DNA of 64,000 bases from Cyanobacteria bacterium FACHB-63 (lineage in GTDB: Bacteria > Cyanobacteriota > Cyanobacteriia > Leptolyngbyales > Leptolyngbyaceae). A program made the position numbers and the translations under genes. The notes beneath the pieces were generated by a model. The model ran no database searches and had not been told where the DNA came from. It was given only the letters and a program-made list of their open reading frames with translations. The stretch is from the NCBI GenBank assembly GCA_014695255.1, contig JACJNX010000040.1, forward strand, positions 186,001 through 250,000, in the 5' to 3' direction. Below are positions 3,796-55,671 of the stretch, piece after piece. Numbering within the stretch: position 1 is the first letter of the stretch; each line of letters opens with the position of its first letter.

Positions 3796-4589
3796 CGCAC
3801 TTGAACTGCAAAGGTGTATTCGTACCCTTTGTAGTTCGACTCAAACTGAAGCGTGTAATCTCCGGATTCGGGTAGCTTGCCCGTCCAGGAACCCTGCTCG
3901 TCTGGCTTCTCGACCAACATCTTGCCACTAGGCGAAATGACCATCGGGAGAAACTTGCCGCGATTGCTGGCACTCGTCAAGGTCATTTGCTGCCCTTTGG
4001 CGAGATTGAGGCGGTAACTATGCGTTCCGCCACCGATGAAGCGATCGCGAATCTCGATCGAGTCTTGTTCCCTGCCAAACTGAACGCGCTCGGTTTTTTC
4101 ACCACAAGTATTGTCCGTTCTGTTTTTGGCAATCCATCCGGGCGTTTCACCGCTGATTCTGAACCAGCCATCTTGCTCTTCTTTGACATCCACATACGTC
4201 CCATTTTTTAGCTGTCCGACAATGTTCTCGGTTGTGGTTGCTTTGGGAGACGATCGTACATTTAGTGGTGAATCTGGATCGTTGACTCTTGCCATAAGGA
4301 TTCGGCATTTCTCAACCGTTCGAGTGGCTTGAGTAGATGTATTGCCTGGTGTATCAGGCTCAGAATTGGGTGGAGTGGGAGATTCTGAAGCAGTCTCGTT
4401 GCTTGTATTGCTCTTTGTGATCGGCGTAGGAGATTCTGAAACAGATGGAGAAGGACTAACAGAAGGGCTAGGAGTTGTGCTGTTGTTTTGTGCGATCGGT
4501 TGAGATTGAGGCGTAGAAGCACAGCCTGCAACCAGTGTAAGAACCGTAACAACTCCAATTAGGCGTGACCAGGAACCGTGAAGCAGCAT
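3792..4589 (-). CDS. SH3-domain lipoprotein with PPC-like C-terminus
   Basis: 265 residues. A lipoprotein signal ends in the lipobox LVAGC with Cys23. A Ser/Thr/Pro-rich linker spans about residues 24-90. A bacterial SH3 domain follows at about 93-162 (PLNVRSSP, GQLKNGTYVDV, DGWFRISG, GWIAK). The C-terminal part (about 175-265) ends with GDYTLQFESN, resembling PPC/beta-sandwich domains; a similar domain closes the kinase at 39277-41139. It is probably an envelope-anchored protein that binds the cell wall, but substrate and role are unknown. It is transcribed toward purB and divergent from trhO. Confidence 0.7.
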   Translation of the reverse strand: MLLHGSWSRLIGVVTVLTLVAGCASTPQSQPIAQNNSTTPSPSVSPSPSVSESPTPITKSNTSNETASESPTPPNSEPDTPGNTSTQATRTVEKCRILMARVNDPDSPLNVRSSPKATTTENIVGQLKNGTYVDVKEEQDGWFRISGETPGWIAKNRTDNTCGEKTERVQFGREQDSIEIRDRFIGGGTHSYRLNLAKGQQMTLTSASNRGKFLPMVISPSGKMLVEKPDEQGSWTGKLPESGDYTLQFESNYKGYEYTFAVQVR

Positions 4590-53212: not shown

Positions 53213-53854
53213 ATGGCTCTTCGACTAGGTGATACCGTTCCCAACTTTACTCAGGAATCTTCTGCGGGAACGATCGATTTTTATCAGTGGGCAGGCGATA
53301 GCTGGGTGGTTCTCTTCTCCCACCCCGCAGACTACACTCCAGTTTGCACTACAGAATTGGGTGAAGTGGCAAAGCGGAAGCCCGAATTTGACCAGCGCAA
53401 TGTCAAAGTGATTGCGCTCAGTGTGGATGATGCAGAATCCCACCAAGGCTGGATCGGCGATATCAACGAAACCCAAAGCTGCAACGTCAATTATCCAATC
53501 TTGGCAGACAAAGACAAAAAGGTGTCTGAACTGTATGACATGATTCACCCGAACTCCAGCACGGGTTCAACTCTGACGGTGCGATCGGTGTTCATTATTG
53601 ACAACAATAAGAAACTCCGCTTAACGCTCACCTACCCTGCTAGCACCGGACGCAACTTTGACGAACTGCTGCGCGTGATTGATTCGCTGCAACTAACCGA
53701 CAACTACAGCGTTGCAACTCCGGCAAACTGGCAAGATGGCGACGATTGTGTTGTCGTGCCTTCGATCCCAACCGATCAAGCGCGTGAGAAATTCCCCAAA
53801 GGCGTGACCGAGGTGAAACCCTACCTCCGCATGACTCCGCAACCGAACAAGTAA
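53213..53854 (+). CDS. 1-Cys peroxiredoxin (Prx6 type)
   Basis: Reduces peroxides with a single catalytic cysteine, Cys45 in HPADYTPVCTTELGEV. 213 residues, with the long C-terminal arm of the Prx6 group. DSLQLTDNYSVATPANWQDG and PYLRMTPQP match it. A second cysteine (DGDDCVVVP) and one in ETQSCNVNY are not in resolving positions. It is convergent with the fused MarR gene and shares its terminator, which may link the two functionally. Confidence 0.92.
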   Translation: MALRLGDTVPNFTQESSAGTIDFYQWAGDSWVVLFSHPADYTPVCTTELGEVAKRKPEFDQRNVKVIALSVDDAESHQGWIGDINETQSCNVNYPILADKDKKVSELYDMIHPNSSTGSTLTVRSVFIIDNNKKLRLTLTYPASTGRNFDELLRVIDSLQLTDNYSVATPANWQDGDDCVVVPSIPTDQAREKFPKGVTEVKPYLRMTPQPNK

Positions 53855-53879: not shown

Positions 53880-53909
53880 AACTGGGTGAGCTTCCTTACC
53901 CAGTTTTTT
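53880..53909. terminator. terminator after the peroxiredoxin gene
   Basis: AACTGGGT (53880-53887) and ACCCAGTT (53898-53905) form a stem with a 10-nt loop and a run of Ts. It overlaps the end of the convergent MarR gene. Confidence 0.82.
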
Positions 53910-54834
53910 CTATGGCATTGAGATTTTTGATCGCTTGATCCACCCAATCAGACAGTGCCGCTTGCTCTTCGATCGAAAGGTCAGTCATCATCATTGCGAT
54001 CACGGACTGGGCGATCGGGGGCAGCGTCGTTTTCATTTGCGCTCCGGCTTGCGTCAGCCAAATCCGCCAAACTCTTCGATCCTGGAAGTCACGTTGACGG
54101 CGAATTAAGCCGCGCTCACTCATGCGATCGAGTACCCCCGTCAAAGTGCCGCCGACCTGCTGGAGTTGATCGCTAATTTCAGAAGTTGCCTGTCCATCTT
54201 CTTGCCACAAACAGCATAAGACGACCCAGTGAAACGGCGTGAGTTCATACGGCTCAAGCAGTTCCTGGAATCGGCGGGTTCCTAGCTGGGCAATAATTTT
54301 GATGCGATAACCGAGATTATAGGGAGCCAGCAAAGCCTGCCAACCCTCAGCATGGGTGGTAGCGGCAGAAGGAGACAAATTGGCGATGATGCGATCGATG
54401 ATGCTGGACAAGTGTTCGCGTTCTGGAACCGGAATTCCCTGCAAGGCGGCTTCTCGAATTGCGACTGCGATCGGTGGGAGAATGTCTTGAAGCTGCCGTC
54501 CTGCATCAGTCAACCAGATTCGCCAAACTCTTCGATCCTGGAAGTCGCGTTCACGGCGAATCAAGCCGCGCTCACACATCCGATCGAGTACCCCCGTCAA
54601 AGTGCCGCCGACCTGCTGGAGTCGATCGCTGATGCTCGATGTTGCCTGCCCGTCTTCCTGCCATAAACAGCACAAGACCACCCAATGGAATGGAGTCAAC
54701 TTATAGGGATCAAGCCGTTCCTGAAATCTGCGACCGAGCAGTTGAGAAAGGAGCTTGATGCGGTATCCGATGCCGTGTGGAGCCAGTAAACGTTTGAGAT
54801 TAGCGGGAATTTGTTCAGTGTCTGAAGAGATCAT
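53896..54834 (-). CDS. tandem-duplicated MarR regulator (two wHTH domains fused)
   Basis: 312 residues made of two MarR domains, about 18-155 and 170-306, offset by 152 residues. Both have LTPFHWVVLCCLWQEDGQAT, LQQVGGTLTGVLDRM, ERGLIRR and DFQDRRVWRIWLT, the recognition helix and wing. MarR proteins are normally dimers of one domain; this chain could form the dimer by itself. DNA is nearly identical between 54074-54170 and 54530-54626, so the duplication is recent or kept by gene conversion. Each domain has a Cys-Cys pair (55-56, 207-208). The peroxiredoxin gene is its neighbour. Confidence 0.88.
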   Translation of the reverse strand: MISSDTEQIPANLKRLLAPHGIGYRIKLLSQLLGRRFQERLDPYKLTPFHWVVLCCLWQEDGQATSSISDRLQQVGGTLTGVLDRMCERGLIRRERDFQDRRVWRIWLTDAGRQLQDILPPIAVAIREAALQGIPVPEREHLSSIIDRIIANLSPSAATTHAEGWQALLAPYNLGYRIKIIAQLGTRRFQELLEPYELTPFHWVVLCCLWQEDGQATSEISDQLQQVGGTLTGVLDRMSERGLIRRQRDFQDRRVWRIWLTQAGAQMKTTLPPIAQSVIAMMMTDLSIEEQAALSDWVDQAIKNLNAIEKTG

Positions 54835-55182
54835 CTCATTCCTAAAATTGCGTATTAAACGACTTAGATCTCGAAGCTCGGCGTAGCAAAAAGCAAAGTA
54901 GGAAGATTTTAGCTTAATTAAATTGTTTAAGACAGAATTAAGGGATTAACGATTGCCGTTTGGATCGTAATACCAATTTAAAAAGCAAAGGCATTAAAAA
55001 GCAAATGCAGCAGGTTACCGATTCTTCGCATTCTGTAATTGTAGAGATACCATTAAACGCCCTCCTACCAGAAATTTCGCAATGATCGGTTATGTGCAAA
55101 CTTCACCAATCAAATTGGGAGCAGGAATGAGTAGAGCGGCAAACCGACGTTGATGACAATTTCCCACAAATTGGTTCTATTC
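54835..55182. promoter_or_regulatory. 348-nt gap upstream of the fused MarR gene
   Basis: CTTAATTAAATTGTTTAAG (54913-54931) is an imperfect 19-bp AT-rich palindrome about 80 nt upstream of the MarR start, a plausible autoregulatory site. AAAGCAAA repeats nearby (54889, 54980 and 54997 regions). The 23-codon frame at 55082 lacks a ribosome binding site and is not accepted as a gene. Confidence 0.4.
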
Positions 55183-55671
55183 TCACATCAGAAACTTAGG
55201 AGGAGTCAGCCAGAATAGGCGGCTATTGCCGATCGCGCCTCCGGTATCCGGTAACTCTAGCCCGACTACACCTGCTTTTTTCAGGATGAGGCGATCGCGG
55301 ACTTCCCCCCAAATCAGCAATTCAGCCCACCCACTTAAGTCTGGTTCATGTCCTACCAGCGCCAGTGTCTTCTCCGGCGTGCGCCACGCTTCGAGCCAAC
55401 TAATCCAGGTCTGAATATTTCCGCTTGGCGCAAGATACCCCTCAACTTCGAGTGCATCGCCTAAGTCAGCCGCTTTTAGAATTTCAGCCGTTTGCTTCGC
55501 GCGAGCCAGTGGGCTTGTCAGAATTAGATCAAACTCCAATCCAAACGATCGCAGCCGTCTTGCGACTTGCTCGGTTTTGCGCTTTCCTTCGGAAGTTAGG
55601 GGTCGCTCGTCGTCGTTGGTGTAATCGCCGTGCTGTCCCGCGAGTCCATGCCGGATGAGGTAGAGTTTCAT
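55183..55671 (-). CDS. sixA: phosphohistidine phosphatase SixA
   Basis: 162-residue histidine phosphatase. The catalytic RHG motif is at KLYLIRHGLAGQHGDYTNDD, with RPLTSEGKRKTEQVARRLRS, TSPLARAKQTAEIL and the second His in LALVGHEPDLSGW. SixA removes phosphate from histidine-containing phosphotransfer domains or PTS-like proteins. The DHH phosphoesterase gene lies upstream on the same strand, 72 nt away. Confidence 0.88.
   Translation of the reverse strand: MKLYLIRHGLAGQHGDYTNDDERPLTSEGKRKTEQVARRLRSFGLEFDLILTSPLARAKQTAEILKAADLGDALEVEGYLAPSGNIQTWISWLEAWRTPEKTLALVGHEPDLSGWAELLIWGEVRDRLILKKAGVVGLELPDTGGAIGNSRLFWLTPPKFLM

Follow-up and report, generated by a model that had tools for sequence, protein, structure and literature searches.

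A MarR-type switch is normally a pair of identical proteins. Besides SarS, the SarA family of Staphylococcus aureus includes SarU and SarY as further two-domain regulators; the length of SarU is 247 residues, and a two-domain statement was not found alongside this reported length. Two-domain MarR-like single chains are already known from SarS, which is described not as a dimer but as one larger protein built of two homologous halves (PMC10715151). The protein analysed here is encoded in a 64,000-nucleotide stretch of DNA from Cyanobacteria bacterium FACHB-63, the whole of which is called the window below. Like SarS, it is a single chain made up of two winged-helix halves that are homologous to each other; unlike SarS, it belongs to another phylum and another locus, and the two share 11–13% identity over the aligned part. 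The family PF22381 (Staph_reg_Sar_Rot) matched the window protein at 48.6 bits (cut-off 27), PF01047 (MarR) scored higher, and the nearest relatives found were cyanobacterial single-domain proteins.

EmrR of C. violaceum is autorepressing and lies near emrCAB (PMC6249546). The single-domain orthologues of the window protein resemble EmrR/MprA in locus layout, preceding an EmrA-like adaptor and an MFS transporter with putative operators at both promoters, whereas the window protein has two domains and an unlinked emrA-like gene in its own genome (G000, 7.2 Mb). Its scores were below the cut-offs of the EmrR/MprA equivalog NF008122 (46.0 bits vs. 157) and the OhrR equivalog NF052638 (112 bits vs. 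200). ChlR is reported to hold an Fe-S cluster via N-terminal cysteines and to act as a homodimer on TTMCC-N3/4-GGWAA (PMC13421787). The window protein shares with ChlR the MarR family, the cyanobacterial origin and a palindromic putative operator, but this operator is different, and the cysteines of the window protein (residues 55, 56, 87, 207, and 208) include no N-terminal one. The Cluster A mycobacteriophage repressor TipsytheTRex is one chain with two DNA-binding domains that acts as a monomer; unlike those of the window protein, its domains are dissimilar, and its 13-bp site is asymmetric (PMC9283540). No earlier description of tandem MarR proteins in cyanobacteria was found in the open-licence literature, and what is new, as far as found, is that such a protein occurs in a cyanobacterial lineage, that single-domain orthologues occupy the same locus and that only the heads are homogenised.

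A fused MarR gene in the window

The fused gene has an ATG start and no internal stops (Table 1). Two PF01047 matches, 152 residues apart, were obtained in the protein (92.1 bits; cut-off 24.6), which exceeds the curated cut-off for this winged-helix domain, places the protein in the MarR family and confirms the two MarR domains in one polypeptide that a preliminary description had read from the DNA. Offset by exactly 152 aa, the two halves can be aligned without any gap, and 96 of 160 residues are then identical. The same description had called the copies near-identical, which holds for the winged-helix core, with a DNA identity of 0.92–0.95 in 60-nt steps (ORF bases 201–320), but not outside it, where identity falls below 0.5 towards both ends. 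A repeat search returned a single 266-nt direct repeat in the gene (81%, spacing 456).

Table 1. Positions of the fused marR gene, its parts and its upstream neighbourhood in the window
Feature	Coordinates	Strand	Basis
Fused (tandem) MarR regulator gene, 312 aa	53896..54834	(-)	ORF, Pfam, orthologues
N-terminal MarR domain, residues ~17-155	54370..54786	(-)	Pfam, AlphaFold model
Inter-domain linker, residues 156-168, predicted disordered	54331..54369	(-)	AlphaFold, pLDDT <50 at residues 157-172
C-terminal MarR domain, residues ~169-308	53911..54330	(-)	Pfam, AlphaFold model
Winged-helix core, N half, residues 62-112, homogenised with C-half core	54499..54651	(-)	DNA identity of the halves, core trees
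Winged-helix core, C half, residues 214-264, homogenised with N-half core	54043..54195	(-)	DNA identity of the halves, core trees
Upstream region of the fused gene, operator of single-domain orthologues not found	54835..55182	(-)	Matrix scan
sixA-like phosphohistidine phosphatase, in synteny upstream of both single-domain and fused marR across the family	55183..55671	(-)	

Distribution and locus of the fusion

The family search covered 42 genomes at a match threshold of E≤1e-15, and the order search gave the identical 42 genomes. Matches were found in 25 of them; in 13 the orthologue was fused and full length, and in the other 12 all matches were single-domain, so the orthologues with the same fusion that had been proposed as a check do exist. 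The fused set comprised all eight genomes of the window's genus and G009, G026, G027, G029, and G030, and the fused orthologues of the 12 further genomes were 68–94% identical to the window protein. Across a sample of 386 genomes of the phylum, matches at E≤1e-30 occurred in 42, and the three that were full length all belonged to the window's family; no fused match outside this family was found among the 386. A named collection yielded 191 relatives, of which 80 were kept (8 fused and 72 single). The named fused relatives were Leptolyngbya sp. Prado105, Phormidium tanganyikae FI6-MK23, Pseudanabaenaceae LEGE 13415, two Myxacorys, two Phormidesmis priestleyi, and Leptolyngbyaceae CSU_1_3.

The identity of the core DNA would suit an artefact of assembly or collapse, or a tandem duplication that one strain had acquired very recently, but we give this reading practically no credence. 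For practical purposes an assembly artefact can be ruled out because 12 further genomes carry fused orthologues, those of G017, G018, and G019 on contigs of 5.7–6.3 Mb; furthermore, the flanking helices have diverged strongly between the halves, and both the flank and the core DNA trees (see below) contradict it.

The gene order DHH–sixA–marR is common to the fused genomes and the single-domain family genomes G016, G033, and G035, and single-domain sixA–marR was also present in G028 and G004. Because the fused and single-domain genes share this sixA–marR synteny, the simplest reading is that the fusion arose by duplication in place. Derivation of the C half from another paralogue is possible as well; N and C halves as one clade were not rejected in the protein flank tree (p-AU 0.349; few columns), and synteny favours duplication in place.

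Age of the fusion and homogenisation of the heads

DNA trees of 26 halves and 4 single-domain sequences were computed for the flanking helices and for the 153-nt core. In the flank tree, the N halves formed one clade (98/94) and the C halves another (100/99), whereas in the core tree the N and C halves were mixed by genome or lineage, and a C clade was rejected (log-likelihood 114 lower, p-AU 0.00045). Repeated conversion of the heads is suggested because the flanks give clean N and C clades while the core mixes by genome. At 4-fold sites of the core, the within-genome difference was 0.429 across all 13 genomes, compared with 0.639 when the partners were permuted (a value as low in 0 of 20000 permutations), and 0.464 compared with 0.634 in the genus only (9 of 20000), with permutations that model phylogeny incompletely. 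No comparable effect was observed over all 13 genomes in alpha-1 (0.602 vs. 0.657) or the tail (0.707 vs. 0.720); the genus tail was slightly low (937 of 20000).

Tested genome by genome, homogenisation at 4-fold sites was significant at p<0.01 in 7 of the 13 (G026, G021, G020, G027, G000, G017, and G009), and no significant homogenisation was detected at these sites in the other six (p>0.05). The halves of G026 and G021 differed at 1 of 29 and 6 of 28 core sites (p 1.9e-12 and 2.1e-6, respectively), and G026 contained a 171-nt run identical between the halves. The mean residue identity between the N and C halves of the 13 fused genomes was 0.98 in the recognition helix, 0.66 in alpha-1, and 0.37 in the tail helices. 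Because the core identity extends to synonymous sites, gene conversion is favoured over protein-level selection, and the patterns point to intragenic gene conversion that repeatedly homogenises the DNA-reading heads only. The preliminary description had regarded the duplication as recent or the recognition region as homogenised. The second view agrees with the mixing in the core tree, the 4-fold sites, and the per-genome tests; the first is contradicted by the fused orthologues across genera and the clean N and C clades of the flanks. Judging from these sequence comparisons, the fusion is not recent but older than the split of several genera.

Among 7 pairs of relatives, dN/dS was ≤0.24 for the core and flank of both halves (one value was not computable), which indicates strong purifying selection on each half. 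The tail helices of the C half are more variable (between-genome identity 0.55 vs. 0.62 in the N half), which would fit an ordinary MarR dimer formed through one half with the other half unused. We regard such a spare domain as very unlikely, however, given the low dN/dS of both halves in every comparison computed, the nearly identical recognition helices and the retention of the fusion in all eight genus genomes.

Predicted arrangement of the two halves

AlphaFold was run on the window protein as a single chain with 9 fused sequences as input, and the five models ranged from pLDDT 79 to 51. The best model (pLDDT 79.2, pTM 0.76) had a disordered linker at residues 157–172. The first match of this model in a Foldseek search of the PDB was SarS (1p4x), to which VIA-align fitted it over 227 of 250 residues (Z 12.7, rmsd 5.4); among the 50 matches listed, SarS was the sole one aligned over more than 200 residues. 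The model of a Phormidesmis orthologue (pLDDT 74.6, pTM 0.69) gave a similar fit to 1p4x (Z 13.2, rmsd 5.1, 226 residues), which was again the sole listed match to exceed 200 aligned residues. The models thus support an arrangement in which the two halves of a single chain pack as in SarS, with a SarS fit above 5 Å rmsd and an equal Z reached by many single-domain MarR chains across one half. The covalent pseudo-dimer of the preliminary description agrees with these models, which match SarS across both halves, and stands as a model-based proposal. Independent or altered ligand sites, which it had also raised, are possible because the dimerisation and ligand helices are the diverged part.

Putative operators of the single-domain relatives

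A conserved imperfect palindrome was found directly before the start codon upstream of the single-domain orthologues. With a matrix built from these upstreams, a putative operator above 6 bits was detected in 94 of 104 distinct upstreams (shuffled maximum, 0.2), and 80 of the 94 sites ended 5–8 nt ahead of the ATG. Part of the 10 misses reflected a start codon placed too far up- or downstream (e.g., L033, where the site is otherwise visible). Own-promoter scores are partly circular because the matrix was built from those sites; the sites downstream of marR were not in the matrix-building set. The marR promoter carried an operator above 8 bits in all 72 named single-domain loci; at least one further operator lay downstream of marR in 64 of them, and a downstream pair (30–47 bp apart, mostly 38–45) in 49. 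In total, 205 sites were obtained from these loci, compared with 8 in shuffled loci.

The fetched flanks of the 72 loci contained an EmrA-like gene in 55 and an MFS gene in 53; at L126 and L143, the genes downstream were an EmrA-like adaptor and/or an MFS_3 transporter. Because the putative operators lie both at the marR promoter and before the EmrA/MFS genes, the layout of single-domain marR and its EmrA/MFS operon is that of an EmrR-type repressor. The symmetry of these operators was itself imperfect (4.27 of 7 arm positions on average) and the heads of the fused protein are kept alike, which does not bear out the earlier suggestion that the fusion would allow asymmetric operators.

The operator consensus was approximately ATTACGTACACTAAGTAAT, as observed at positions 3974, 4709, and 4754 of L126 and at other named single-domain loci (L096–L167). 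The ATTACGTACACTAAGTAAT sites of this widespread cyanobacterial MarR represent a candidate regulon, a description of which was not found in the open-licence literature. A whole-genome pattern search returned 2 to 16 sites (≤1 mismatch) in each of eight single-domain genomes; in five of these the number did not clearly exceed that of the reversed control.

Putative operators and target of the fused regulators

No emrA-like gene was found beside marR in the fused genomes fetched. Such a gene was present at E≤1e-60 in 8 of the 13 fused genomes (G000, G018, G019, G021, G023, G017, G029, and G030) and was not found at this threshold in G020, G022, G026, and G009, all of which have the fused regulator. 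A 128-residue emrA-like piece with 77% identity was observed in G027 (L215, G027:C52:56429-56812) and is perhaps the remnant of a lost target. The emrA-like gene of G000 (G000:C170, L194 4277-5680) is unlinked to the fused marR and, unlike the Nostocales loci, has no adjacent MFS gene.

The emrA promoter of G000 contained two putative operators, op1 (C170:7663-7680) and op2 (C170:7710-7727), whose starts are separated by 47 bp. The sites scored 27.4 and 19.0 bits, and the second is a perfect palindrome (TATTTAG-CGTA-CTAAATA). The palindrome TATTTAGNNNNCTAAATA occurred once in G000 (≤1 mismatch), at this promoter, from which the pattern itself had been read off. Pairs above 5 bits were also found at the emrA promoters of G018, G023, G019, G029, and G030; one site exceeded 5 bits in G021, with a second readable below the threshold, and one in G017, where it was weak. 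The emrA operators scored well in G000, G018, and G021, and were weaker in G023, G019, and G017. A large regulon was not indicated: in each of the 12 fused genomes covered (all but G021), TACGYRYKCTAARYA (≤1 mismatch) was rarer than its reversed control.

Operator pairs with starts 46–48 bp apart were present at 7 of the 8 emrA promoters of fused genomes (the second site of G021 was below 5 bits), and it is conceivable that the fused chain still dimerises (N–N and C–C) so that two linked MarR dimers form a pseudo-tetramer holding both emrA operators at once, two copies of each half fitting two palindromes. We consider this unlikely: paired operators do not require the fusion because single-domain loci already have them, the linker of ~13–16 residues seems too short for the distance without strong bending, and the models match SarS within one chain.

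At the promoter of the fused gene itself, no operator was found in G000, and the best site in the whole window scored 2.0 bits and lay elsewhere. The own-promoter operator persisted in both Phormidesmis genomes (14.2 bits), was weaker or displaced in G009 (7.1 bits) and G027 (2.3 bits), and was not found near the start in G026 or in any of the eight genus genomes, whose alignment, inspected by eye, contained no convincing replacement palindrome at this promoter. Together with the emrA-like gene not found in the genus genomes G020 and G022, the loss in all eight might mean that the fused protein of this genus has left emrA and controls another target. Such rewiring appears improbable, however, since six genus genomes keep the emrA-like gene, three of them with good operators, and purifying selection on both halves is strong. 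Rather, because operators are kept at the emrA promoter and none was found at its own promoter, the fused regulator probably still acts in trans on the efflux target of its ancestor, whereas the autoregulation of that ancestor has been lost in the window's genus.

Proposed origin and mode of action

We consider it reasonably probable that the window protein is a SarS-like one-chain pseudo-dimer with homogenised heads, derived from a single-domain ancestor at the sixA–marR locus and likely controlling the emrA-like gene of G000. The architecture, distribution, synteny, homogenisation, and operator sequences on which this account builds were observed; operator binding, repression, and the ligand are inferred, as is the pseudo-dimer, the last from the models. 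The ancestor was most likely a single-domain EmrR-like repressor at sixA–marR, and one internal duplication in the ancestor of several genera would have produced the fused gene. Both heads would still read the same DNA because the winged-helix core was repeatedly copied between the halves, and the dimerisation and ligand-pocket helices would have diverged into a fixed heterotypic interface. The two winged-helix domains may pack against each other within the chain and so form a SarS-like pseudo-dimer, with one chain per 18-bp operator and two chains occupying both sites around the emrA promoter. The likely target in G000 would be the unlinked emrA-like adaptor gene, and a putative small ligand would relieve repression.

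Several observations weigh against this account. The emrA-like gene was found in only 8 of the 13 fused genomes, apart from the G027 piece, and four genomes in which none was found keep the regulator; the emrA promoters of G021 and G017 have one site each above 5 bits, that of G017 weak; and 6 of the 13 genomes are without significant 4-fold homogenisation. Moreover, the window protein models, from 9 sequences, have a wide pLDDT range, the SarS fit exceeds 5 Å rmsd with equal Z by single-domain chains over one half, own-promoter scores are partly circular, and TATTTAGNNNNCTAAATA was read off the tested site.

A more tentative proposal, which we hold to be possible rather than probable, is that of a natural single-chain MarR in which lasting gene conversion keeps the heads identical and the interface and pocket become asymmetric; covalent pairing would have freed the regulator from autoregulation, with decay of its own operator and retention of the distant emrA operators. 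If true, this would be a stepwise record of the change from an obligate homodimer to an asymmetric one-chain regulator, and the fused pseudo-dimers would show a route from a symmetric homodimeric regulator to asymmetry. The natural series comprises same-locus single-domain orthologues, fused forms in several genera, conversion confined to the heads, and a candidate operator and promoter. Its matched natural pairs would make the gain from covalent repressor dimerisation directly testable, and a candidate operator and regulon are supplied for a widespread cyanobacterial efflux regulator.

Other features of the locus

A peroxiredoxin gene (window positions 53213-53854) is convergent with the fused marR. 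It was rejected as a general target because it lies near marR in part of the genus only and is convergent. Upstream of the fused gene, a 16-nt repeat occurs in two head-to-tail copies (54978-55009). Each half of the protein contains an LCCLW cysteine pair (residues 55-56 and 207-208 of the window protein), which is invariant in the fused set and present in nearly all single-domain relatives inspected, the paralogue L039 missing one cysteine; a redox or structural role of these adjacent cysteines is possible.
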